From the NCBI GenBank assembly GCA_030710605.1, contig CP092882.1:16180062-16244061 (forward strand): a stretch of DNA of 64,000 nucleotides. Direction: 5' to 3'. Positions 7,944-44,400 of the stretch are shown piece after piece. Each line of letters begins with the position of its first letter. Position 1 is the stretch's first letter. The DNA comes from Cordylochernes scorpioides. Taxonomy: Eukaryota; Arthropoda; Arachnida; Pseudoscorpiones; Chernetidae. The notes beneath the pieces were generated by a model. That model saw only the letters and a program-made list of their open reading frames with translations. It made no database searches and had not been told where the DNA came from. The position numbers and the translations under genes are program-made.

Positions 7944-8640
7944 AGTTTTGTGAAATAAATTGAATGTTTGAAAATAACTACTGATATCAATACACTATTT
8001 TTGAAATGTTAATATAGTACCAAAAATTATGATGGCACTACTAATAGGATTTCGTGCTATAAGGAATGTATAGTTTCTTGACTAATTGTCGACACTTGAC
8101 TATTTAACTGGATATTTGTCATGATCCAAAAATGAAATATAGAGGGGAGTGACAAAATATATTTTTCGTACTTTATTCCAAATATCCTATGGGTTTGTCA
8201 AATGTTATCATTGTTTATTATACTGTACATAATTTTGAAAATGTATCCCCTAAAAAAAATCATTTTTAAATCGACCTTTTGCGTTGAAAAACGTGGTAGT
8301 AAAATCATTTTGAATTATTTTCTGCGCAAAACATCTATAGTTGGGGTGGGGGGGGGATACAGAGATTATTCCTAATGCTATTTCTTCTAATGAGCGAAAA
8401 GCGATAAACTAAACATAAGGGGTAAAATTGTGTATACCAGTGTTATTCGAGAAGTTATAACACTTTGGCCTGTACGACATAATATAAAATGTGGGCAAAT
8501 GACAAACAAAAAAAATATTGTTTACAGAAAAAAAAAAGAGTCAAGATGTGAGGACAGCATTTATTATTCCCATAACCCAAAACAAAGAGCTGCAAAATAT
8601 AACACATAAGGTAACTGCCTTCTCTCTTGTATTAGGTCAC
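7944..8640. other. No gene seen
   Basis: AT-rich sequence with a G-run near 8344-8356. No coding frame or known repeat was recognised. It lies between the left inverted repeat and the end of the transposase relic. Confidence 0.5.
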
Positions 8641-29645: not shown

Positions 29646-30014
29646 TCTACTTATATAATTGCCTTATTCTCTCTGTGTGAAGTTCACTGTGTGAAGTTCA
29701 CTGTGTGAAGTTCACGGATAGATTTTGGTCAGAATGGATAAAATAAAAAAAGTGTCAAGGGATGGGAATCGAACCCACGACCTTCCGCTTACCGGGCAGA
29801 TGCCATGACCACTAGGCTACCCTGGACATATTTTTCCGTTCACATTTTTATTTTTATATTTTCAAGACACACACAGTTTGGGGCGGGACGTTTCACAAAA
29901 GAGACATCCACGGCGCCAATTTATAATTGTAATGAATAGTATTTTAATTAAAACATTTTTAAAATATATACGCACTCGGGTAAAACCCGGGCGTTGCCCG
30001 GGCCATTCGTCTAG
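29646..30014 (+). mobile_element. Non-autonomous Helitron-like element carrying a tRNA-like sequence
   Basis: It begins TCTACTTATATAATTGCC after an A. It ends with the hairpin CCCGGGCGTTGCCCGGG, seven bases, then CTAG followed by T. TC at the 5' end, a hairpin near CTAG at the 3' end and A/T flanks are the Helitron hallmarks. It has no Rep/helicase gene. An antisense tRNA-like cassette lies about 105 bp from the 5' end. Confidence 0.8.
29753..29827 (-). tRNA. tRNA-like cassette, anticodon loop CCGGTAA (GGU, Thr-like)
   Basis: The minus strand folds as a cloverleaf. The acceptor is GTCCAGG/CCTTGAC with one mismatch, and an A box TAGCCTAGTGG is present. The anticodon stem is TCTGC/GCGGA with loop CCGGTAA, and the B box is GGTTCGATTCC. 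The base at position 33 is C instead of the nearly universal T, so it may be a tRNA-derived relic rather than a working tRNA. It lies antisense inside a Helitron-like element. Confidence 0.65.
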
Positions 30015-30679
30015 TATATATATAAAAATAGGAGAAGTTTTCTGTTCGAATTTTCTTCATTCTCAATCTCAAACAATCATTAATCTCAAGCCATTTACAA
30101 AATATATGAATATGATATTTGAAATCATTTTTTTTTAATTGCATTTCTTCTCTCTGCTAACCTAAGCACTATGTTTTTACTGTGTATGCAAACTGGCAGA
30201 CTTTGGTTCAATAAAAGTAAATCGATGTGTCTATTTTGTGACAGGAAAGATACTCTGTATTTCAATAGATGATTATATATTATAACAGAAAATAATCTAT
30301 CTATATACACTCTATAACATCAAAAAAATCGAATTTTAAAGAAGTTGTCAAATTGGGACAAAAATTGGTGTATGTGAACAACATTTCTAGAAGAAAAAAC
30401 GATTAAACCTTCGGAACAATTAATTGTTTTATTCCAGAATTTGATAATCACAATTTGAGAAATTCAATATATTATTGAGAATTCAATTCAGTGGAGACGA
30501 ATAAAACTTATATTATGGAGATCTATTTGATTATCTTAAATATTTTAAAAATGCAATTTTTGAGAAGAACCAGTTATGCAAATCAAAAAATATATATATA
30601 TTCATACATAACTCTCTTTCAACCTTACCTAAACCATACCTTTATAACAAGTTTCCACATTATAGAAATAACAATTTAT

Positions 30680-30990
30680 TCGCGATCAAACGTTGTGGCC
30701 CACCGTTTGTATCACATCACAAACACGATGCAACGCCAGCCATCTCTGTATTGAGCTCGATGTACCATCTCGGCGACTGTCAAGCCACTGGATTCCTTTA
30801 ATTGGACCACGAAGTGTGTCGGCGGGCGTCCAGGGGAAGAGTCGCCCAGACGTCATTGTGTACATCATTTCCTGTGTGGCGCGAAGTGACTTAAGAATCT
30901 CAAACGATTTCGTTGTACACGTCACAGAATTCGGCCATCTTCCGAAATCAAAAGTTTCTAACAATATACCTAACTTTAATTTATATATAT
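30680..30990. other. GC-richer block of unknown identity
   Basis: This block stands out from AT-rich flanks. Both strands have open frames of about 100 codons (30693-30992 plus; 30686-31021 minus), neither of which I recognise. It may be a decayed coding piece of a mobile element. It lies directly 3' of the lectin exon at 31071 in gene orientation but shows no lectin motif. Confidence 0.3.
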
Positions 30991-31070
30991 AATGAGATGA
31001 ATCAGTTAGCGTTGTTAACAATTAAGGATAAGAGTAAGAGACATTATAGGTGAAAAAATAAATAAATTAC

Positions 31071-31235
31071 CTTCAGGAGGTATCAGGTATTTCAATCTAT
31101 ACTCGGAATTTTCATAGTGGTAAAGAGTTGCTCCTTCTCCCCTACAGTAGTTATCAGCTTCTCTTTCAGATACCTTGTTGGTTCGTAGCAGGTAGCACTT
31201 GTTTATGAAGGTCCGCCAACCCTCAGGACATGGAC
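31071..31235 (-). CDS. C-type lectin gene B, exon 2 (first half of a lectin domain)
   Basis: The exon lies between an acceptor (ATGTTACAG before GTCCATG) and a donor (CCTGAAG before GTAATT). It begins and ends in phase 1. The frame reads CPEGWRTFINKCYLL and SEREADNYCRGEGATLYHYE, the N-terminal half of a C-type lectin domain with the first Cys residues and the A...C motif. It joins in phase with the signal-peptide exon at 35158-35212. The rest of the domain was not found further left, so the gene is either incomplete or has diverged exons. Confidence 0.75.
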
Positions 31236-31518
31236 CTGTAACATTCTCATGCTCAGGTTGTCATATTGAGGACAAAATGTAATAGTGTTGAGACCTGCGT
31301 CACACACTTTCGTTTGGAAAATATTTATAGCCAATGTATAGACCTCTGATATTGTCGTAGTGATATATTAATTTGGAAAATAAAATATCGAGAGAAAGAG
31401 AGGTAAATTGAGATAATCAAGCAAAAGGAATTAAAATATTCCATTATATATTGTCTATGTGTATGTGATATTTTTTCTGGTCATTTTGATTATTTAGAAT
31501 ACAAACTGAATTTGCACT

Positions 31519-31590
31519 TGATCAATGGCTGAGTGGTTTATACCATCGATTTTCGATTAAAAAAGAACCGTGGTCGAATTCCTAATTGGA
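31519..31590 (+). tRNA. tRNA-Ser-like relic
   Basis: ATGGCTGAGTGG fits an A box. TTTTCGATT could be an anticodon loop with CGA (Ser), and GGTCGAATTCC resembles a B box with one change. Stems are poor, so this is a decayed tRNA or a SINE head. Confidence 0.3.
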
Positions 31591-32540
31591 AAATTCTTAT
31601 GAAGAAGTAATTGCTTTGATATGGCTTGATTCTTTCACCAGTCTAGGCCTACTGTTGTGTGCAAGTAACTAATTGCGACTCTGGAAAATCTGCAAAAGAC
31701 GAATTGCTTTCCACATGCGTAGATTTATGGGGCACTTACAGCTAAAGTAGTCGTTAACTGCCCACTTTGATTATCATGGTCTTTATCTCAAATGTATTTG
31801 GTTTATTAAAAAAATAATACAAATTATATATTTAATACAGGAATAGAAAATTTTAAAAATGTTGTGAATAAATGTCGCCTTCTAGTATCAATTTTTGATT
31901 TTGGATATGCTACTATGTTCAAAGTAACATTCAGAGCATATATCCGTTTTAATCAAATTATAATATAAAGGAATGCTTTGCTATTTTGTGAATCTGATTC
32001 CAAAAATAATTGATCTATTTTGGCGAAAGATTCATGAGTAACTTGAGTTGACAATTCAATTTAATAATCCCTTGCATTAATATCAAGCTGAAACATATGG
32101 ACTCCAGGGAAAAGCATCCCTTAAAAAACATTTTAATCATTATTTCTCGGGAACGAACACCCCTTAAAATTAAAAAAACACGGTATCATGAATCTATCGT
32201 CAAATTAAAACAATTATTACTTGAATCTGATTCACAAAAAAAAAGTATTGAAATTAACAAAAAGAAATGTTTAAAAGCGGTTCTGTGTCTAAAAAGATAA
32301 AATGAGATGTATATAGGAAAACAGTGGCTATGTGTTTTGACGGAAAACCATGTTCCTGCGGATGTGATAATAAGGAAGCATGATAAATTGGTTTAAGACA
32401 AAAATAAAAACTTTCGAATTTCAAAATTCATCTTCACAGAAATAATTTTCTAACTTTTTATTATAATTTGTTTCTATATCATTAATATATTTATTATACA
32501 GTTATGAATAAATAATTTTCAATGATAGAGTATTTAAATA
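31591..32540. other. No gene seen
   Basis: Intronic sequence of lectin gene B, with no coding signal on either strand. Confidence 0.4.
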
Positions 32541-32704
32541 CAGAAGACTTCCTGTAAAGGACACCTAATGAGAGATCCAAAATGTCCTTTAGGGAGAGAT
32601 GTCCTCTTACAGAGAGTTTCCAAATAGTAAAAATGATAATTTTGCAGATGAAAACTGTCCTTTGTAGAGAGGTGCTGAGTGACCGCTAAAGGGAGGTTCT
32701 ACTG
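32541..32704 (+). repeat. Pogo-like MITE, copy 1
   Basis: Ends CAGAAGACTTCCTGTAA and GGGAGGTTCTACTG are imperfect inverted repeats flanked by TA. The interior repeats GTCCTTT and AGAGAGTTTCCA wording shared with copies at 36689 and 47146. It has no coding capacity. Confidence 0.6.
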
Positions 32705-32749
32705 TAGTACAATATTACTTTAATATTATATATATATCGAATTGAGGTG

Positions 32750-33365
32750 TCTACTCACTGTGGGAATGCTGTCGACTCTGTCGAAATGTGTGGTTTGGTG
32801 GATATGGGGTTGGATTGGTGGGTTGGTGTGGCGCAGTTTTGGTCGGATGACAAGGGTTCCACATGGGAAGAACGAAAACACCTGGATGGGGTAGAAAAGG
32901 ACCTTGCGATTGGGAGAGAATGTTCGGCAGAGGTAGCTGGCCTTTCACATGGTGGAGCGTACACTACTTTGGTTGGATCCTATGTTGAGCACACCTACTT
33001 CGTAGCATGGTCACCTACCTTCCTTTTGTTTCTTGTCCGAGATAATCGTCATAGACTCTCTCGACTTCTCATTGGTTGAGATCCTTCCACGTGCTCTCTG
33101 GTGATTCGCTATTAATTTGTCATGCTAAAGGTGATTGGCTGTTAATTTGTCATGCTTAAAGGTGATTGGCTCAGTACCTCCATTGTCGCCAAAATTGCAA
33201 TCCTCCTGGAAGAAGAAGACCTTTGAACTTGAGTTTTATGGGTCCAGGGCAGTGACCTTTGTTTCCTGGATGATGCAATCCTGTACTTTGTTTCTTTCCC
33301 ATCTCGCGAGACCTAACTTTTATTAAACCTTTAGACGATACATTATACAAAGTTTGTGGTGCAGT
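32750..33365 (+). repeat. GC-richer block, possible solo LTR
   Basis: A block of about 0.6 kb starts near TGTCTACTCACTG. It has three inverted CCAAT motifs in repeated GGTGATTGGCT wording, then TTTTATTAAACC and TGTGGTGCAGTTACG near its right side. This looks like an LTR promoter and polyadenylation region next to a TGG-type primer site, as in BEL/Pao elements. The 110-codon frame inside is not recognised. Confidence is low without a second copy. Confidence 0.3.
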
Positions 33366-34192
33366 TACGTAATCCTATATACAGATTATCACATATATAT
33401 ATATATATCTTCAACTATTATTGTAAGATATTTATTTCGAATAATAAGTGTCAATCTTATTTAATCATTAATTCTGTTCTTCCAATAAGTACCTTCCAAA
33501 AAGACAGTTAAAAAAGGCAGATAAAAAATGCGAAAGAAAACCAATTATTTTTTCTAAAAATTTAGAGGTCTTGCACTCGCTCTCTTTTAAAAAATTCGTC
33601 AGATTAGATATTTGACCTATTACTTAATTTATATTCTTAAATGTTAACAAAATCAAAGTTGCCACAGTTATGATGAGGGTCATAATCCAAAACCAAGGTA
33701 TACAGTTTGGATTTTTTCTGAATTTACTGAAACCTTTGTGTTTCGACTCGTTCTTTATCCCCACCTGTACGTTTTTAGCTGGGGTGATCGTCTAAAATTA
33801 TTATTTTACTTTCGTTTAAGAAGGTGATGACATTTTTGGTATACATAACCCATAATTCTTCATCTTCATGGTATATATATGCACATATATTTTTATTTTA
33901 AATAAATATTAATTTAAATGCATATAATAAATCGCTGCATTAGCGTGTCATCAGTCAATGGAAATTAATACTATGTATAGCGTGTATAGGTTTATTTAAA
34001 AGATATAATAGCATTAGAATACTGCTTCATTTTGAAAGGAACATTTGTCATATATTGTCACATAGAAAATGAGGAAAGACACACCTCAAAATAAAATGGA
34101 ATTTAACTTTAAAAGTCAAACACATTAAAAATTATAAAATACAAAAGGAGAAATGAAGGAATTTTAGAAAGTATAAATATCAAAATTGTTAA
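33366..34192. other. No gene seen
   Basis: AT-rich intronic sequence of lectin gene B without recognisable features. Confidence 0.4.
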
Positions 34193-34970
34193 TCTACTTA
34201 TATAATTGCCTTATTCTGTCTGTGTGAAGTTCACTGTGTGAAGTTCACGGATAGATTTTGGTCAGAATGGATAAAATTAAAAAAGTGTCAAGGGATGGGA
34301 ATCGAACCCACGACCTTCCGCTTACCGGGCAGATGCCATGACCACTAGGCTACCCTGGACATATTTTTCCGTTCATAAAGTTAACATATGATGCCAATAT
34401 ATATAATAATTGTATAAACGATTGCAAGACAAAATCACCGCGAATGTTTATTTTTTTAAGGCAATTTCTTTTTAAGGCAATTATCGTTTTGCACAATTAC
34501 CTAATATTTTAAAATAAATAACAATACTTAAATGAAAATATGTTTCTTTAAATAAAATAAAATAAAATTTAGGTACTAAAGGTAACTAAAGGTATATTTA
34601 GTCAATATACCTAAGTTCATGTAGCAAATGTAATTATCTCTATCGATTTAGTAGGTGAAATGCAAAAAAAAAATCGACATGATAAAATCTTTATGAAAAT
34701 TCACATTTTTATTTTTATATTTTCAAGACACACACAGTTTGGGGCGGGACGTTTCACAAGAGAGACATCCACGGCGCCAATTTATAATTGTAACGAATAG
34801 TATTTTAATTAAAACATTTTAAAAACACACAGTTTGGAACGGGACGTTTCACAAGAGTGACATCCATGGCGACAATTTATAATTGTGACGAATAGTATTT
34901 GAATTAAAACGTTTTTAAAATATATACGCACTCGGGTAAAACCCGGGCGTTGCCCGGGCCATTCGTCTAG
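34193..34970 (+). mobile_element. Helitron-like element, longer form with tRNA-like cassette
   Basis: It has the same 5' end (TCTACTTATATAATTGCC) and 3' end (hairpin, CTAG, then T) as 29646-30014 and the same A/T flanks. It adds about 0.4 kb of internal sequence (AAGGCAATTTC repeats) and an extra partial subterminal copy at about 34826-34915. It lies in the intron of lectin gene B. Confidence 0.8.
34286..34360 (-). tRNA. tRNA-like cassette (GGU), second copy
   Basis: Sequence and fold match the cassette at 29753-29827, including the A and B boxes and the C33 loop. It is again antisense within the Helitron. Confidence 0.65.
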
Positions 34971-35157
34971 TCTGTTAATAAAATAATAAATACTTTACCA
35001 CAATATGATATTGTATACCCATTGATAATATGTTAGGTTGTTATTTAATTTTGAGTTAGAGAGGTAGTATACGATTTAAAAAATACTCAAATCATTCTAT
35101 AATATCATTTAGAAAGGTATGTATATCAAACACAGATATATATAAAAATCTACCCAC

Positions 35158-35212
35158 CTTCTTGGGCCGCAGAGATGGAAACAAACAAGGCTGCAGTCAA
35201 CAATACCAACAT
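35158..35212 (-). CDS. C-type lectin gene B, exon 1 (signal peptide)
   Basis: ATG at 35212 starts MLVLLTAALFVSISAAQE, a short hydrophobic signal peptide ending in the cleavage-like SAA/QE. The donor is GAAG before GTGGGTAG, phase 1, matching exon 2 across an intron of about 3.9 kb full of repeats. The gene encodes a secreted or membrane lectin whose domain starts straight after the signal. The upstream 5' UTR and promoter were not identified. Confidence 0.7.
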
Positions 35213-36688
35213 GGCTCTAATGACATTAGTAAATCAGATATCTGATTAAAGGACGCCGACAACATCCTTTTCCTTTTCTAGACTGATATAATTCCTCTCT
35301 AATGTTCTCTCTTGAAGTAGGTAGTTTAATAGTTTCAAAATATATATATTTTTGAAGCTGTTTTCAGGCATTTGATTCACTTTATATTGACATTTTAGTG
35401 TGGATTATTTATTATTTTAACCGCAAGAGAGAGAGAGAGAGAGAGAATAATATATTATTCTTTATTTTGTAGCTTATAAAATCAAATAAATATTTTTGAT
35501 TCTCTTTTGGTTTAACATAAATTCAGTCAATGTGTGTGTTTTGAGCAAAAAAAAATATCATGCTATTATCATGTTTGCCTTTACTTATTTTCAATGTGAC
35601 AGTATCGGGAGTAAGGTCGACAATTTTCAATCATATCATTGGTTTGAAAAGTCCAACCTTTTGAAAATTTAATTTATATATATAGTAAGATAAAAACAAT
35701 GGGAAAATTGTAAATTTATAAATTTATTAACATCAGTTTATCACGCAAGTGAAAGAGATATATTATGGAATATGAGATATATAGTATGAATATGAATCAG
35801 AATAATTTTAAATGTGAATTATAGAAATCAATTTTATATAGCACATGAATTTTCTTTTTCAAAATATAATCTTTCTATACTTTCTGTGATGAAAATATGT
35901 AAATGGGCATATGCGATATAGCATGTTTATTGGGAGTAATGGCCTCCGAGGAGGTACCTCAATCCATTAAACGCTGTGATATTCCATGAATGCGTCTAAT
36001 AGGCTATATCAACTATTCTGTTTTCATATAAATGACTAGAAAATATTCAATAGGATTCTTCTCTGTTATTGTCTTTTCATCAAATTATGCTTAATTGATT
36101 TTGTCTTTTCTGTTCATGAATGAGCATTACCCGAGTCGAATTTTTATTTATAATTCTATTGTCCTCTAAAAGGGGAGAGAGATTGAAATTTAAGCTAATT
36201 TATTACCTCTCATTTAATATATATATATTAATAATAATATATTTTAGCACATTTTGAATTAAAATTAATATTACTAGGTGACTGGACATTTTTCGCTTCT
36301 TCTTCTCCTACCATGAAAGGTTGCGGTGGATATACACTCATGGACATAACTTAAGGAAGTAGAAGGTTTTTGATGTCAGGTCGTCTTTTTTCTTTTAAGG
36401 AGTCAGAGGCAGTTTTATTCACACTTCGTGATCTCGTGTCTTCAATAAAGGTCACTGCGTTTCAAATATCTTTCATAGATATTGTCTGAATTCCAATATA
36501 CATGCTAAAAGGTACAACCTACTTAAATATTGCCCATGAGTTATATCAACCTTTAAAAGCCTACATAATACAACAATTTTTAATATTTTAATGTTATTCC
36601 ATAATAGAATAGTTTTCTCTTTGGGGTTCAAATAAGAATTTGTACAAAATTCCTTCTTTCCTCTAATTTTTTTTTATTTTATTAATTA
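35213..36688. other. No gene seen; upstream side of lectin gene B
   Basis: This stretch should hold the promoter of lectin gene B, but no clear core promoter was identified. A (GA)n run lies at 35425-35448. A segment at about 36430-36515 resembles 58120-58195 (TCTTCAAT.AAGGTCAC and AATATCTTTCA), a shared repeat or old duplication upstream of both lectin loci. Confidence 0.4.
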
Positions 36689-36828
36689 CAGTAGAACATT
36701 CCTTTAGTGGACACCTCTTCCTAAAGGATAGTTTTATTTTGCAAACTACCATTTTTACAATTTAGCCACTCTATGGTAAGTGGGCTTTGGCTCTGCAATT
36801 AGATATCCTTTACAGGGATGTACTACTG
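36689..36828 (+). repeat. Pogo-like MITE, copy 2
   Basis: Ends CAGTAGAACATTCC and GGGATGTACTACTG form an inverted repeat with TA on each side. The 140-bp interior has the TTTTGCAAACTACC wording of the family. Confidence 0.65.
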
Positions 36829-37054
36829 TAAAAAATAATATATATGTGGTGTGTGTATTTATTTATATTATCCTCATCATATTCAGACGCTCTATCACCA
36901 TAAGGGAGGCTTGCTTCAAGAAACAATACAAAATTCTTAGACTAATACACATAAACAATTACTGATTTGAAAATTCAAGCAGGAATTGTAAAATCTAGCA
37001 TGATTTATATACAAACCAGGAACAACACATGAAATAAATACAAATATATATATA

Positions 37055-37887
37055 CTAGACGAATGGCCCGGGAAACGCCCGGGTTTTACCCGAGTGCTCA
37101 TATATTTTAAAAACGTTTTAATTCAAATACTATTCGTTACAATTATAAATTGGCGCCATGGATGTCACTCTTGTGAAACGTCGCGTTCCAAACTGTGTGT
37201 TTTTAAAACGTTTTAATTAAAATACTATTTGTTACAATTATAAATTGGCGCCGTGGATGTCTCTCTTGTGAAACGTCCCGCCCCAAACTGTGTGTGTCTT
37301 GAAAATATAAAAATAAAAATGTGAATTTTCATAAATATTTCATCATGTCGATTTTCTTTTTGCATTTCACCTACTAAATCGAAGAAATAATTACATTTGC
37401 AACATGAACTTAGGTATATTGACTAAATAGAAAACTGCATAGTAATAAAGATCATTTTTTAAAGGCACCATATCGTTTGTTTTTTCAATAAAATCGAAAC
37501 AAAAATTAACGATAAATAACGATAATTGCCTTAAAAAGAAATTGCCTTAAAAAAGAAGCATTCGCGGTGATTTTGTCTTGCATTCTTTTATACAATTATT
37601 ATATACGAATGACCCGGGCAACGCCCGGGTTTTACCCGATTAAATGCTTTTGTTCAAATACTATTCCTTACAATTATAAATTGGCGCCGTGGATGTCATT
37701 CTTGTATAATATATAAATGAGTTATAAAAATTGTAAAAAAAAAAAAAATGCATCGGCCGGTAATCGAACCCTGGCCGCCCGCGTGGCAGGCGAGCATTCT
37801 ACCACTGAACCACCGATGGTTATGAAAAATCCCATCCGTGAGCTTCAAACAGACAAACAGACAGAATAAGGCAAATATATAAGTAGA
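37055..37887 (-). mobile_element. Helitron-like element with tRNA-Gly, first of a head-to-tail pair
   Basis: Read on the minus strand it starts TCTACTTATATATTTGCC and ends with a hairpin and CTAG, followed by T (37054). The outer hairpin carries one change. Inside lies a second hairpin without CTAG (about 37613-37650). The tRNA-Gly cassette is about 65 bp from the 5' end. At its 5' side it touches the CTAG of the next copy with no base between. Confidence 0.8.
37749..37819 (-). tRNA. tRNA-Gly(GCC)-derived cassette, copy 1
   Basis: The minus strand reads as tRNA-Gly with anticodon GCC. It keeps the A box TGGTTCAGTGG and loop TGCCACG, and is followed by a T-run of 13 as a pol III terminator. 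It differs at position 1 (C for G) and in the T arm, which weakens the acceptor and B box. Confidence 0.75.
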
Positions 37888-38722
37888 CTAGACGAATGGC
37901 CCGGGCAACGCCCGGGTTTTACCCGAGTGCGCATATATTTTAAAAACGTTTTAATTCAAATATTATTCGTTACAATTATAAATTGGCGCCATGGATGTCA
38001 CTCTTGTGAAACGTCCCGTTCCAAACTGTGTGTTTTTAAATTGTTTTAATTAAAATACTATTCGTTACAATTATAAATTGGCGCCGTGGATGTCTCTCTT
38101 GTGAAACGTCCCGCCCCAAACTGTGTGTGTCTTGAAAATATAAAAATAAAAATGTGAATTTTCATAAATATTTCATCATGTCGATTTTCTTTTTGCATTT
38201 CACCTACTAAATCGATAGAGATAATTACATTTGCAACATGAACTTAGGTATATTGACTAAATAGAAAACTGCATAGTAATAAATATCATTTTTTAAAGGC
38301 ACCATATCGTTTTTTTTTTCAATAAAATCGAAACAAAAATTAACTATAAATAACGACAATTGCCTTAAAAAGAAATTGCCTTAAAAAAAAGAAACATTCG
38401 CGGTGATTTTGTCTTGCATTCGTTTATACAATTATTATATACGAATGACCCGGGCAACGCCCAGGTTTTACCCGATTAAATGCTTTTATTCAAATACTAT
38501 TCCTTACAATTATAAATTGGCGCCGTGGATGTCATTCTTGTATAATATATAAATGAGTTTTAAAAATTGTAAAAAAAAAAAAATGCATCGGCCGGGAATC
38601 GAACCCGGGCCGCCCGCGTGGCAGGCGAGCATTCTACCACTGAACTACCGATGGTTATGAAAAATCCCATCCGTGAGCTTCAAACAGACAAACAGACAAA
38701 ATAAGGCAAATATATAAGTAGA
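37888..38722 (-). mobile_element. Helitron-like element with tRNA-Gly, second of a head-to-tail pair
   Basis: This is a near-identical copy of 37055-37887 in the same orientation. Its 3' CTAG is joined directly to the 5' TCTAC of the other copy. The pair as a unit has A and T flanks (minus strand, 38723 and 37054), so it may have arrived as one insertion. Confidence 0.8.
38584..38654 (-). tRNA. tRNA-Gly(GCC)-derived cassette, copy 2
   Basis: The best-preserved copy. The anticodon arm, T arm (GGTTCGATTCC) and most of the acceptor match the canonical metazoan tRNA-Gly(GCC). The first base is C instead of G, and one D-arm base is changed. A T-run follows. Pol III transcription is plausible. Confidence 0.8.
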
Positions 38723-38887
38723 TATTTATATATACATTGTTTATATATAGCAATTACGTTTTTTAACTAAGAGAAAAATCCTAGATATATTTGCAGAATT
38801 TTATGCATTTAAAATATGAGTCTTTACTTTTTATGAACATAAAAAGATGAATATATTCAATGTTTTCCCAATATCTTTAGTTCTGGA

Positions 38888-39165
38888 AGAATGACACTCA
38901 ATATGGGTTATAAAATTCGGAAAAATAAACACATCACAAGAGGGACCTAGGAAACCATAGAGAGAGACGGGACAGGCACAGCTGGACGGTCGCTCGTGTT
39001 GCACACATCATCAAATATATTAAAAGTCCTGAGGTGTTAGCTAACAGGCCTTAGTGATCGCCTCTTGTCATGTCGCTGCTATTTCAAGTGACAAGACTTT
39101 ACCCTCCATCTTTGTTTCTTATAGGTTAGCTTTATTAAATTAATACATATGTTATTTAACACTTA
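38888..39165 (+). repeat. Diverged relative of the solo LTR at 4611
   Basis: The region shares GGAAACCA, the CGCTCGTGTTGCACACATC block and AAAGTCCTGAGGTGT in the same order and spacing as 4611-4961. Ends are too decayed to fix. Confidence 0.45.
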
Positions 39166-39786
39166 ATATAATTATCAATATAGATCAAATATAAGTTGGA
39201 GGTGTGTTATAATATGAATTTTAATGGATTTCAATCACTTATCTTGTAAAAATTGAGCATTGTTTCGCTTTGTAGCAGTTTACTTTTTTTTATTGAACAT
39301 TATTTTTAACACTCACACATAAAAACAGTTCTGGCGATATTGAAGAATTTCTCTGTCATTCTTTCCTTAGTGGAATTTATTTCATCAATGACCTTATCTT
39401 TATTATTTTATTTCATGACAGGCTCTTTTCAAATAAAAAAAAAAAACATCGACTGATATCTCTTCCACTTAATGTGCGTACTTTATCGATCTCTTAATTA
39501 TATTTGAATTCAATACTTTCTAAGAAAGTGACTATTTATCATGTGCAAAGAATTGCCAAATACTAAATTCAATAATCTGTGCATTGTTGTTTCAATATTT
39601 TAATTTAATAAAAATATCCATGCTGTACATCTTGAAGATATAGTATGATTATATGTAACCATTATTTCTTCCATTACATCTACCCTCTCCTTTGTTATGT
39701 TATAATTATCTCTGGCTTCTAGGATTCTCCTGTTAAAATTATTATTTTACTGCCTAAATATACTAAATATTTGATAAGCTATTCAG
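39166..39786. other. No gene seen
   Basis: AT-rich sequence without coding frames or recognised repeats. Confidence 0.4.
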
Positions 39787-40113
39787 GGCCAATATCCCTA
39801 TATATAGTCACGACCGTCTTTCCTCATCGGCCTCAGTCACGGATGCGCGCGCATCATCATTATGAGCATTATCATTATCTAATGATAATAATAATTATTA
39901 TTATTATTATATTATTATTATTAATATATATAGTCACGACCGTCTTTCCTCATTCCTCATCGGCCGCCTCTGTCACGGATGCGCGCGCACAGGGAGGTCA
40001 CGTGCTCGCCGGCAGCCAACGGGCGCGCGCCGCCGGCATTACGTCATATATTATAAACACAAGGTAATAAGGCCAAATAAAAAAATAGTGTGTGATAAGG
40101 CACAATTTGAATA
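39787..40113. repeat. Second copy of the TATATAGTCACGAC/GC-palindrome composite
   Basis: It has the same building blocks as 29204-29645: two units with GATGCGCGCGCATC or GATGCGCGCGCA, an (ATT)n tract, then the GGTCACGTGCTCGCC block with ACGTCA, leading into a Helitron at 40114. The composite plus Helitron therefore exists twice in the window. Confidence 0.55.
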
Positions 40114-40468
40114 TCTACTTATATAATTGCCTTATTCTGTCTGTGTGAAGTTCACTGTGTGAAGTTCACGGATATATTTTGGTCAGAATGGATAAAATAA
40201 AAAAAGTGTCAAGGGATGGGAATCGAACCCACGACCTTCCGCTTACCGGGCAGATGCCATGACCACTAGGCTACCCTGGACATATTTTTCCGTTCACATT
40301 TTTATTTTTATATTTTCAAGACACACACAGTTTGGGGCGGGACGTTTAACAAAAGAGACATCCACGGCGCCAATTTATAATTGTAACGAATAGTATTTTA
40401 ATTAAAACATTTTAAAAATATATACGCACTCGGGTAAAACCCGAACGTTGCCCGGGCGATTCGTCTAG
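40114..40468 (+). mobile_element. Helitron-like element with tRNA-like cassette, third copy
   Basis: The 5' TCTACTTATATAATTGCC follows an A. The 3' end is a partly mutated hairpin (CCGAACG for CCGGGCG), then CTAG before T. It is almost the same as 29646-30014. Confidence 0.8.
40207..40281 (-). tRNA. tRNA-like cassette (GGU), third copy
   Basis: Same fold, boxes and C33 loop as the two other copies, antisense in its Helitron. Confidence 0.65.
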
Positions 40469-40469
40469 T

Positions 40470-40678
40470 ATTAAATACTAGGTGGTTATAAAAAAGTTCT
40501 TCAAATGAAAAAAAAAATAGCCAAAAATACTAATCAAAATGCAGCCGAAAATTTTCCTCAGGTTTATATAAAGCGACATGCAAAATTTGGTTCCAATTGG
40601 TTCAGTAGTTTTGAGTTTATCGCGAAACAGACAGACAGACAGAAATTGACTTTTATATATATATAGAGATATAGAGAT
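40470..40678 (-). repeat. Helitron-type 5' end of another family, reversed
   Basis: On the minus strand it starts TCTCTATATATATATAAAAG, followed by a GTCT repeat, then CGCGATAAACTCAAAAC. This wording is familiar from the 5' ends of insect Helitron-like elements. It directly borders the minisatellite array at 40680. Confidence 0.45.
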
Positions 40679-40679
40679 T

Positions 40680-41404
40680 TACTCTTCATTGTTGGCTTTT
40701 TATCTTACATTCATTCTTCATTGTTGGCTTTTTATATTACATTCACTCTTCATTGTTGGCTTTTTATCTTACATTCACTCTGTTGGCTTTTTATATTACA
40801 TTTACTCTTCATTGTTGGCTTTTTATCTTACATTCACTCTTCATTGTTGGCTTTTTATATTATATTTACTCTTCTTTGTTGGCTTTTTATCTTACATTCA
40901 CTTTTCATTGTTGGCTTTTTATCTTACATTCATTCTTCATTGTTGGCTTTTTATATTACATTCACCCTTCATTGTTGGCTTTTTATCTTACATTCATTCT
41001 TCATTGTTGGCTTTTTATATTACATTTACTCTTCATTGTTGGCTTTTTATCTTACATTCACTCTTCATTGCTGGCTTTTTATATTATATTTGCTCTTCAT
41101 TGTTGGCTTTTTATCTTACATTCATTCTTCATTGTTGGCTTTTTATATTATATTTACTCTTCATTGTTGGCTTTTTATCTTACATATATTCTTCATTGTT
41201 GGCTTTTTATATTACATTTACTATTCATTGTTGGCTTTTTATCTTACATTCACTCTTCATTGTTGGCTTTTTATCTTACATTCATTCTTCATTGTTGGCT
41301 TTTTATATTACATTCACTCTTCATTGTTGGCTTTTTATCTTACATTCATTCTTCATTGTTGGCTTTTTATATTACATTCACTCTTCATTGTTGGCTTTTT
41401 ATAT
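40680..41404 (+). repeat. 32-bp minisatellite array, forward orientation
   Basis: About 23 units of a 32-bp repeat built on CATTGTTGGCTTTTTAT. Units alternate between TCTTACATTC and TATTACATTy forms, so the higher order is about 64 bp. One unit near 40778 lacks about five bases. Because 32 is not a multiple of 3 and no frame of the unit has a stop, all three forward frames stay open (up to 305 codons). These are not genes. Confidence 0.9.
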
Positions 41405-41751
41405 CATATACGAATGACCCGGGCAACGCCCGGGTTTTACCCGATTAAATGCTTTTATTCAAATACTATTCGTTTCAATTATAAATTGGCGCCGTGGATG
41501 TCATTCTTGTCAACATATATAGTCACGACCGTCATGGGCGGGCGGGCGGGCCGGCCGGCCGGCCGGTTCTGTCACGGATGCGCGCGCATCATCATTATGA
41601 TCATTATCATTATCCAAATAATTTGGATTATAGATTAGAAGGTAATAAGACCAAATCTACTGATAAGGTACAATTTGGAATATAAACATATATAGTCACG
41701 ACCGTCATGGGCCGGCCGGTTCTGTCACGGATGCGCGCGCATCATCATTAG
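41405..41751. repeat. Spacer between the inverted minisatellite arrays
   Basis: It holds a reversed Helitron 3' subterminal piece (hairpin CCCGGGCAACGCCCGGG at about 41418-41434), then two copies of the TATATAGTCACGAC unit with GGCCGGCCGG expansions and the GATGCGCGCGCATC palindrome. It forms the loop of a large inverted repeat. Confidence 0.7.
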
Positions 41752-42514
41752 TATAATATAAAAAGCCAACAATGAAGAATGAATGTAAGATAAAAAGCCA
41801 ACAATGAAGAGTAAATATGATATAAAAAGCCAACAATGAAGATTGAATGTAAGATAAAAAGCCAACAATGAAGAGTGAATGTAATATAAAAAGCCAACAA
41901 TGAAGAATAAATGTAAGATAAAAAGCCAACAATGAAGAATGAATGTAAGATAAAAAGCCAACAATAAAGAGTAAATGTAATATAAAAAGCCAACAATGAA
42001 GAATAAATGTAAGATAAAAAGCCAACAATGAAGAGTAAATATAATATAAAAAGCCAACAATGAAGAATGAATGTAAGATAAAAAGCCAACAATGAAGAGT
42101 AAATATGATATAAAAAGCCAACAATGAAGAATGAATGTAAGATAAAAAGCCAACAATGAAGAGTAAATGTAATATAAAAAGCCAACAATGAAGAATAAAT
42201 GTAAGATAAAAAGCCAACAATGAAGAGTAAATATAATATAAAAAGCCAAAAATGAAGAGTGAATGTAAGATAAAAAGCCAACAATGAAGAGTAAATGTAA
42301 TATAAAAAGCCAACAGAGTGAATGTAAGATAAAAAGCCAACAATGAATAGTAAATGTAATATAAAAAGCCAACAATGAAGAATGAATGTAAGATAAAAAG
42401 CCAACAATGAAGAGTAAATATAATATAAAAAGCCAACAATGAAGAGTGAATGTAAGATAAAAAGCCAACAATGAAGAGTAAATTTAATAAAAAAAGCCAA
42501 AAATGAAGAGTAAA
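41752..42514 (-). repeat. 32-bp minisatellite array, inverted orientation
   Basis: The same repeat as 40680-41404 on the other strand, about 24 units, with the same alternation and the same shortened unit (near 42312). Long minus-strand frames (up to 284 codons) are by-products of the repeat. Confidence 0.9.
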
Positions 42515-43031
42515 TCCCTATATATATAAAAATGAATGTTTGTATGTTTGTCTGTTTGTATGTTTGTTTGTATGTCCGGTATACAAATTCGCAGTAGTTC
42601 ACTAATTCAAACCAAAATGTCCATACATAGGTAAAAAAATACGGGGAAGACGATAGGCTATTTTAAAATATATATATATCATTTATTAAAACTATATATT
42701 TTTAGTCAGAAAATGATGATGACGATATTGCTGTATCATGTTTGATTATCAGATACAAAATTATATCGGGAAAAATTCCAAAAAGCAGAGACCACGGGTG
42801 AAACCAGTTCATTATTTTGTACGCAGGAACAAAATTCTAACAGAAAAACATTCATTCGAGCAGAAAACTAGAGCCAGATCATCTTTCTATAAAAATATCG
42901 CTTCTCAGACACAAAGTTTGCAGCGGGACGTTTCACAAGTGTGACATCCACGGCGCCAATTTATAATTGTAACGAATAGTATTTGAATAAAAACATTTAA
43001 TCGGGTAAAACCCGGGCGTTGCCCGGGTCAT
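42515..43031 (+). mobile_element. Helitron-like element, variant ends
   Basis: It starts TCCCTATATATATAAAAATG with a GTTT/GTCT-rich leader, and ends with the subterminal block (GGGACGTTTCACAAG, GGCGCC) and hairpin CCCGGGCGTTGCCCGGG, then CATTCGTCAT in place of CTAG. No tRNA cassette. The ends belong to two different 5'/3' types, so it may be chimeric. Confidence 0.55.
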
Positions 43032-43929
43032 TCGTCATTAATATATAGTCACGACCGTCTTTCCTCAATTCCTCATCGCTGTCACGGATGCGCGCGCATC
43101 ATCATTATGATCATTATCTTCTATAGAAGCTTCTATCTTTATAATTATGTATATTTACAAAAAGTCAATTCGCTCGCGCCTCTAGCGGTGAAAATGAGGG
43201 GTAATACCAGCTGACCTAATGTCCATGTGAGGTTTGGAGCGGGACGTTTCACAAGAGTGACATCCACGGTTCCAATTTATAATTGTAACAAATAGTATTT
43301 GAATAAAAACATTCAATCGGGTAAAACACGGGCGTTCCCAGTGTCATTCGTCTATATTATACAAGAATGACATCCACGGCGCCAATTTATAATTGTAACG
43401 AATAGTATTTGAATAAAAGCATTTAATCGGGTAAAACCTGGGCGTTGCCCGGGTCATTCGTATATAATAATTGTATAAACGAATGCAAGACAAAATCACC
43501 GCAAATTTTTCTTTTTTTTTAAGGCAATTTCTTTTTAAGGTAATTATCGTTATTTATCGTTAATTTTTGTTTCAATTTTATTGAAAAAAAAAAAACAACG
43601 ATATGGTGCCTTTAAAAAATGATCTTTATTACTATGCAGTTTTCTATTTAGTCAATATACCTAAGTTCATGTTGCAAATGTAATTATCTCTATCGATTTA
43701 GTAGGTGAAATGCAAAAAAAAAAAAATCGACATGATGAAATCTTTATGAAAATTCATATTCTTATTTTTATATTTTCAAGACACACACAGTTTGGGGCGG
43801 GACGTTTCACAAGAGAGACATCCACGGCGCCAATTTATAATTGTAACGAATAGTATTTGAATTAAAACGTTTTTAAAATATATACGCACTCGGGTAAAAC
43901 CCGGGCGTTGCCCGGGCCATTCGTCTAGT
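43032..43929 (+). repeat. Cluster of broken Helitron 3' ends
   Basis: At least three 3' subterminal blocks lie in series in the forward direction: hairpins near 43320-43340 (mutated), 43440-43455 and 43902-43918. Only the last is followed by a clean CTAG (43925-43928). A fragment of the TATATAGTCACGAC unit lies at 43045-43110. This is decayed or truncated Helitron material. Confidence 0.6.
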
Positions 43930-44108
43930 ATAATATATAAATGAGTTTTAAAAATTGTAAAAAAAAAAAAAAATGCATCGGCCGGGAATCGAACCCGGGC
44001 CGCCCGCGTGGCAGGCGAGCATTCTACCACTGAACCACCGATGGTTATGAAAAATCCCATCCGTGAGCTTCAGACAAACAGACAGAATAAGGCAAATATA
44101 TAAGTAGA
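43930..44108 (-). mobile_element. Helitron-like 5' half with tRNA-Gly
   Basis: On the minus strand it starts TCTACTTATATATTTGCC at 44108 and contains the tRNA-Gly cassette. Its 3' half is missing or replaced by the forward element ending at 43928. Its 5' end touches the 3' end of the next reversed copy. Confidence 0.65.
43974..44044 (-). tRNA. tRNA-Gly(GCC)-derived cassette, copy 3
   Basis: The body matches tRNA-Gly(GCC) with intact A box, anticodon arm and B box. Position 1 is C instead of G, as in the other copies. A T-run follows. Confidence 0.8.
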
Positions 44109-44400
44109 TACGAATGACCCGGGCAACGCCCGGGTTTTACCCGATTAAATGCTTTTATTCAAATACTATTCGTTACAATTATAAATTGGCGCCGTGGATG
44201 TCATTCTTTTATAACATATAAATGAGTTTTAAAAATTGTAAAAAAAAAAAAAAAAAATGCATCGGCCGGGAATCTAACCCGGTCCGCCCGCGTGGCAGGC
44301 GAGCATTCTACCACTGAACCACCGATGGTTATGAAAAATCCCATCCGTGAGCTTCAGACAAACAGACAAACAGACAGAATAAGGCAAATATATAAGTAGA
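44109..44400 (-). mobile_element. Short Helitron-like element with tRNA-Gly (type B end)
   Basis: A minimal form of about 290 bp: 5' TCTACTTATATATTTGCC, tRNA-Gly cassette, subterminal block with GGCGCC, and hairpin CCCGGGCGTTGCCCGGG then TCATTCGTA without CTAG. It abuts the 5' end of the neighbour at 44108 head-to-tail. Confidence 0.65.
44258..44328 (-). tRNA. tRNA-Gly(GCC)-derived cassette, copy 4 (damaged B box)
   Basis: The anticodon arm and A box are kept, but the T arm has changes (GGTTAGATTCC for GGTTCGATTCC, and ACC for CCC), so pol III use is doubtful. Confidence 0.7.

Follow-up and report, generated by a model that had tools for sequence, protein, structure and literature searches.

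Two tRNA types as probable captured passengers of short Helitron-type elements in a pseudoscorpion genome

How do short mobile elements that share both ends come to hold different transfer RNA (tRNA) sequences at about the same place near the 5' end? The question is raised by a 64,000-nucleotide stretch of the genome of the pseudoscorpion Cordylochernes scorpioides (2,619,359,433 bases in 24 contigs), referred to here as the window (G000:C20:16180062-16244061). A preliminary description of its letters had proposed a Helitron-like family with interchangeable tRNA cassettes, swapped or captured twice in one lineage. Our analysis leads us to regard the elements as young non-autonomous Helitrons whose tRNAs were captured and are carried as passengers, an explanation to which, as a whole, we assign a probability of about 0.78.

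Structure and mobility of the tRNA-bearing elements

With ARAGORN and Rfam, seven minus-strand tRNAs were detected in the window at the places previously noted, three Thr(GGT) and four Gly(GCC), with Rfam scores of 41.9 to 60.8 bits (gathering score, 29). Relative to the Helitron, the Thr copies lie in antisense and the Gly copies in sense orientation. The window contains seven TCTACTTATATA 5' ends and 13 3'-end-like sequences (up to 8-9 and up to 6 mismatches, respectively), and complete elements running from TC through the hairpin to CTAG hold five of the seven tRNAs, namely, the three Thr copies (plus strand) and two Gly copies (minus strand) (Table 1). The remaining two Gly copies lack a CTAG end of their own, one ending in CATTCGTA and the other being broken, so that the element structure originally given for all seven copies is complete in five. 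The long Thr copy is 96% identical to the Gly type along 376 bp of 3' interior and ~82% identical to it along 69 columns of 5' end. The flanking wording described as common to both types is indeed common up to TCACGGAT; beyond this point, the Thr type fits TCACGGATNGNTTTT, whereas the Gly type reads TCACGGATGGGATTTT.

Family members are numerous genome-wide. The 5' 30-mer, which starts with TC, has 15,066 exact matches, the Thr-type string TCACGGATNGNTTTT has 8,486, the Thr and Gly cassette junctions have 4,271 and 3,252, respectively, and the Thr core has 5,302, while C-starting and G-starting tRNA-Gly 35-mers occur 6,523 and 6,063 times. The reversed controls gave 0 matches, except for 19 with TCACGGATNGNTTTT. 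Since matching was exact, these counts are lower bounds for the families. Eight loci from the TCACGGATNGNTTTT search, 30 from the 5' 30-mer search, and 40 fetched stretches were then sampled (L numbers name the fetched loci), yielding 102 distinct 5' ends when up to four mismatches were allowed. The cargo class of each 5' end was read from the sequence that followed it, up to the next 5' end and over no more than 300 bp: 27 were c-type, 26 Thr, 22 Gly, 19 e-type, and 5 d-type, and the three others appeared by eye to be one e-like end, one c-like end, and one truncated Thr cassette.

The termini of these elements have the features of Helitrons. The 5' end is TC, and the 3' terminus is a 17-nucleotide palindrome that forms a GC-rich hairpin (fold, -14.0 kcal/mol), followed by 12 nucleotides ending in CTAG, which agrees with a CTRR 3' end preceded by a hairpin at ~10 to 12 nucleotides. 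CTAG was present at 73 of 85 distinct sampled 3' ends; the base after it was T in 71 of 73 distinct contexts, and the base before TC was A in 92 of 101. When 96 joined flank pairs were compared for empty sites, 48 had some junction-spanning match, and four of these were clean: L003 versus L034 (90.8% over 120) and L018 versus L030 (92.5% over 107), both for units with the Thr-like tRNA; L070 versus L012, for a Gly unit (95.0% over 121 columns, with one gap ~14 nucleotides from the joint); and L046 versus L056 (99.2% over 120, in a minisatellite context). In all four cases, the entire unit, including the tRNA, lies between A and T with no target duplication. The earlier assignment to Helitron-type elements with common ends and A/T flanks is thus upheld by the termini, the flank counts, and the empty sites.

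The same evidence bears on whether the tRNA units are instead short interspersed nuclear elements (SINEs) or nested tRNA pseudogenes that hit Helitrons independently. Such an origin would not be without parallel, given that tRNA-derived SINEs lie near Helitrons in this genome (L079, around position 8030) and that a grasshopper Helitron with nested SINEs is on record in excerpts of PMC7754599. However, thousands of copies have identical cassette joints, whole cassette-bearing elements have duplication-free empty sites, and no SINE body was found adjoining the cassette. Independent insertion of the cassettes with duplications of their own, an outcome that the preliminary description had itself set against its proposal, was not seen, and we regard this alternative as largely refuted.

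L061, L071, and the window all contain head-to-tail CTAG|TC joints. In the window, the two complete Gly copies meet in this way and their inner joint consequently has no A before TC; the occasional formation of such arrays would be predicted for rolling-circle transposition. In L058 and L059 (contig C1, 11.856 and 11.893 Mb), up to seven 5' ends follow in a row at a spacing of 131 to 149 bp, with one cassette and one 3' end after them. Other TC heads (TCCCTATATATAGTCACG and a variant) lie upstream of the first and third Thr copies of the window, and since the 100 bases before the Thr 5' end recur in L043 and L045, these two copies may have moved as part of larger units or elements.

Cargo, 5' ends, and candidate sources of the cassettes

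Among the 102 sampled ends, cargo was fully linked to the form of the 5' end. Gly cargo occurred only with the T13/GCTCAC form (22 of 22) and Thr cargo only with the A13/GTTCAC form (26 of 26), and c-type elements used both. When the whole genome was searched for any antisense tRNA B box lying 25 to 55 bases after GCTCACGGAT, 13 matches were obtained, all of which read as the Thr cassette. The linkage among the 102 ends and the 13 Thr B-box matches lend no support to free exchange of tRNA cassettes. Because cargo tracks the 5'-end subtype, each capture looks single, and each tRNA was probably picked up once per lineage. Free interchange, as first proposed, is thus not borne out, although the Gly cassette does occur under different 5' heads, as described below.

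Candidates for the source of the Thr-like tRNA were found on contig C1, which contains 37 exact Thr cores below 20.396 Mb. Twenty-eight of these lie within 100 bp of TCACGGATNGNTTTT, and the other nine consist of three in c-type elements (L015, L018, and L033), two in Thr elements with a variant motif (L027 and L047), and four outside, three of them in an array with 291-bp spacing at 14.97 Mb and one solitary (L094-L096). Two of these outside cores (L094 and the first in L095) have an acceptor stem that is paired throughout (GTCCAGG/CCTGGAC). In the right flank, the array and the Helitron cassette have 14 identical bases (ATATTTTTCCGTTC), and L094 matches the cassette at few bases only. Rfam scores were 50.6 to 56.9 bits for the outside cores versus 54.2 bits for the window copies, so the score cannot separate donor from copy. 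Judged by these alignments, the tandem tRNA array is the likely donor, from which one 5'-end lineage would have gained the Thr-like tRNA gene in antisense. The candidate donor genes in L095 and L096 are flanked, by eye, by a 13-base inverted repeat (GAACGGAAAAATA / TATTTTTCCGTTC).

The anticodon loop of this tRNA reads CCGGTAA, with C at position 33; since C33 and a GGU anticodon are unusual in eukaryotes, we refer to the tRNA as Thr-like. Its cassette joins other sequence within the last 13 of its 74 bases in L062, L010, L034, and L026, and the first 27 bases are absent in L042. These breakpoints fit repeated rearrangement at the tRNA and are too few for a hotspot, while the short Thr copies would fit deletion between TTCA repeats.

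For Gly, the relatives differ in the 5' head. In L097, L099, and L102, the same tRNA-Gly, with its derived C at position 1 (C1), is joined to the same 3' part but has another 5' head in front of it, suggesting that 5' heads were exchanged around the Gly cassette. Units whose tRNA-Gly starts with G (G1) were found in L034, L043, L046, L057, and L083-L093; they have their 3' tail in common but differ in the 5' head, of which there are at least three. One of these heads, X, presumably resembles the 5' ends of Helentrons and HINEs, which have asymmetric terminal inverted repeats and a hairpin inside the 3' end. In the Gly lineage, a TCTACTT 5' end would have become joined ~20 bp upstream of a tRNA-Gly whose tail, together with the Helitron 3' part, exists under a different head. 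The joint has a 4-bp match (ATGG), in keeping with a capture route that probably involved either template switching at the DNA level or filler-DNA repair; the order of the head exchange is an inference.

The Gly cassette could instead be a 5'-truncated insertion of an independent tRNA-Gly unit with an X, Y, or Z head and the common 3' tail, rather than a product of head exchange or repair. Although the right side of the cassette does match the tail common to 14 of the 15 G1 units, no target duplication is visible at the cassette, and the Y-head relatives (L097, L099, and L102) already carry the cassette together with the Helitron 3' part. We therefore consider truncated insertion possible but doubtful and favor head exchange. 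In one copy, L098 (G000:C1:6319300-6319650), a Helitron-like end (GTCATTCGGCTAG|T) adjoins the anticodon arm of a tRNA-Gly without a gap, an arrangement in which the arm seems to stand in for the terminator hairpin.

tRNA constraint, mobilization, and the case against capture

Rows that were rearranged or in another context (12 of 36 for Thr, 5 of 30 for Gly) were omitted before divergence was counted. Among the 24 canonical Thr copies, differences from the consensus numbered 14/1776 in the tRNA, 8/1027 in the 5' flank, and 1/358 in the 3' flank; among the 25 canonical Gly copies, they numbered 13/1775, 5/650, and 6/795, respectively. The tRNA and its near flanks thus diverge equally, at ~0.75%, with no sign of selection on the tRNA in these copies. 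For a further Gly flank, the count was 56/925 without a homology filter and 14/881 with it (24 of 30 rows). Cloverleaves were detected and T-runs are present, yet both consensus cassettes have an acceptor mismatch, which for Gly is C1 opposite C72. Given the equal divergence and these mismatches, the cassettes look like young passengers, which would have been copied as passenger DNA after capture.

Might the element spread functional tRNAs used by the host? The thousands of near-intact tRNA-Gly(GCC) sequences counted above would speak for such a use. Undamaged Helitron Gly copies, however, score only ~59.5 to 60.8 bits versus 66.7 bits for intact G1 copies, the Thr-like tRNA combines C33 with its acceptor mismatch, and canonical copies show no constraint on the tRNA beyond its flanks, making host use very improbable.

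A second possibility is that the tRNA serves the element itself, with an internal RNA polymerase III (pol III) promoter near the 5' nick aiding nicking, strand opening, or chromatin access. Two different tRNA genes do lie near the 5' end, in 48 of the 102 sampled ends, and most copies have kept their T-runs and what we take to be A and B boxes, so that pol III transcription of the cassettes is possible. Nonetheless, the canonical tRNAs are no more conserved than their near flanks, the two types are oppositely oriented, and 51 of the 102 ends (c-, d-, and e-type) have no 5' tRNA, which together make a service to the element distinctly unlikely. It also seems unlikely that pol III genes (tRNA-Gly, the Thr-like tRNA, and possibly 5S ribosomal RNA [rRNA]) are recurrent cargo because they help, either as a transcription unit beside the 5' nick or as a tRNA arm that replaces the terminator hairpin (L098), with heads reshuffled around the kept tRNA. 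We prefer to see the tRNAs as passengers.

Rep-PIF1 Helitrons are abundant in the genome: a profile search with PF14214 (Rep-helicase) gave 1,987 candidates, of which 150 were scored, all rows listed being above the cut-off. L079 (G000:C2:3622000-3631900) has an open frame of 1,384 amino acids with Rep and PIF1 domains, and its 3' end matches that of the family at 86% over 37 bp. An autonomous partner with identical ends was not found in L079, of which only the 3' end is similar, and its three partial relatives (L080-L082) gave no placement of its 5' end. Among L001-L078 and the window, L034 alone has remnants of the L079 protein, and these lie outside the family element. We infer that a Rep-helicase element acting in trans would mobilize the elements. 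Downstream of the Rep-helicase frame of this autonomous Helitron, at L079:6855-7190, lies a full-length 5S rRNA gene (Rfam, 114.3 bits) between inverted arms of ~90 bp; the same palindromic unit is present without 5S in L067.

Several observations count against capture by young Helitrons. The sampled loci all come from one contig, C1, and from its first 18 Mb. An autonomous copy with both family ends was not found, and in the 9.9 kb of L079 no TCTACTT 5' end was detected. Twelve of the 85 sampled 3' ends are not CTAG (nine of them are ATAT), and CATTCGTA terminates the short Gly units. Among the junction-spanning matches, 44 of 48 were not clean (same locus, tandem neighbors, simple repeats, gaps, or low identity) and were not used. 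The left flanks of the tandem array and the Helitron cassette match weakly and are A-rich. Five c-type elements (L015, L018, L033, L049, and L054) hold a Thr-like core ~270 bp from the 3' end with a different left flank; L018, the one that was aligned, carries bases of the Helitron cassette that are absent from the array (GTCAAGG and ATGACCACT), and because it has these derived bases in common with the Helitron version, it probably represents a reshuffled Helitron cassette rather than a second capture. Finally, when all rows are counted, the Gly flanks are more divergent (23/727 and 21/954) than the tRNA (22/2121) and the Thr flanks less so (11/1284) than theirs (55/2616), an unevenness that results from the inclusion of rearranged and other-head copies.

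Known systems and other features

The following comparisons hold for excerpts of the cited papers. Helraiser of bats (PMC4778049) resembles the present family in its TC and CTAG ends, its hairpin 11 nucleotides before the 3' end (~11 to 12 in the comparison), and its insertion at AT target sites without duplication, and its 3'-end bypass moves flanking DNA. Helraiser-type systems are Rep-helicase elements and vectors, whereas the copies described here are short and non-autonomous and have a tRNA close to the 5' end. In the open-licence PMC literature listed for tRNA-carrying Helitrons and for this species, one case looked close, the tRNA-Cys clusters of Arabidopsis (PMC10701932), where tRNA genes lie in tandem units annotated as Helitron and the authors discuss tRNA capture. 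That case is one small cluster, for which none of three Helitron finders returned a reliable element; the present copies number in the thousands, are dispersed, and have defined ends and empty sites. Tukutron of a grasshopper (PMC7754599) also has tRNA-related sequence within a Helitron, but as whole and truncated SINEs in an autonomous element, in contrast to tRNA genes with T-runs and no adjoining SINE body. Insect Hel1 Helitrons (PMC6544945) are similar in having internal captured segments, explained by a filler-DNA model of short-homology repair, although their cargo is gene fragments and the main text has 0 occurrences of "tRNA." The heat-shocked Helitrons of Caenorhabditis elegans (PMC6765114) were rejected as a precedent, since they concern HSF-1 and RNA polymerase II rather than tRNA cargo.

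Carriage and genome-wide multiplication of non-coding RNA genes by Helitrons with defined ends would, according to the excerpted statement of the PMC10701932 authors, be a first if proven. The present family is a genome-wide case of this kind and shows that tRNA genes can be copied round the genome by a Helitron-type transposon, which is one route to thousands of tRNA-like sequences and calls for caution in taking tRNA gene counts of such genomes at face value. As a young system with candidate donor loci, it is suited to the study of how Helitrons gain internal DNA and exchange 5' ends.

Table 1. Elements, tRNAs, and neighboring features of the window
Position	Strand	Feature	Score
29194..29645	+	Other TC heads (29194, 29321, 29466) before first Thr element; perhaps a larger compound unit	
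29646..30014	+	Thr-type Helitron, complete (369 bp); flanks A|TC...CTAG|T	
29752..29827	-	Thr-like tRNA (ARAGORN anticodon GGT), antisense to element	Rfam 54.2 bits
29986..30014	+	3' end: 17-nucleotide hairpin + CCATTCGTCTAG	Hairpin -14.0 kcal/mol
34193..34970	+	Thr-type Helitron, complete (778 bp); flanks A|TC...CTAG|T; 3' interior common with Gly type	
34285..34360	-	Thr-like tRNA, antisense	Rfam 54.2 bits
34942..34970	+	3'-end hairpin + CTAG of long Thr copy	
37055..37887	-	Gly-type Helitron, complete (833 bp); 5' TC directly after CTAG of neighboring element	
37749..37819	-	tRNA-Gly(GCC), sense, with T-run	Rfam 41.9 bits
37888..38722	-	Gly-type Helitron, complete (835 bp); head-to-tail with 37055..37887	
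38584..38654	-	tRNA-Gly(GCC), sense, with T-run	Rfam 60.8 bits
39795..40113	+	Other TC head upstream of third Thr element	
40114..40468	+	Thr-type Helitron, complete (355 bp); flanks A|TC...CTAG|T	
40206..40281	-	Thr-like tRNA, antisense	Rfam 54.2 bits
43355..43928	+	Interior and CTAG 3' end of Gly type, 5' end lacking; inverted beside 43929..44108	
43929..44108	-	5' end and cassette of Gly type, broken off at 43929 at inverted neighbor	
43974..44044	-	tRNA-Gly(GCC), sense	Rfam 59.5 bits
44105..44400	-	Short Gly-type unit; terminal variant ...CATTCGTA, not CTAG	
44258..44328	-	tRNA-Gly(GCC), sense	Rfam 54.9 bits

Three other features were noted. ARAGORN reported a tRNA-Leu(TAG) at L045:2983-3075 that reads by eye as an intron-bearing tRNA-Tyr gene outside the element, beside a W-type repeat. 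A large-subunit rRNA fragment (531.3 bits) lies downstream of a c-type element at L044:1165-2063. The window also contains two arrays of a 32-bp minisatellite, at 40677-41402 and 41754-42515, with ~23 to 24 copies each and in opposite orientation, and the same repeat follows some d-type 5' ends.

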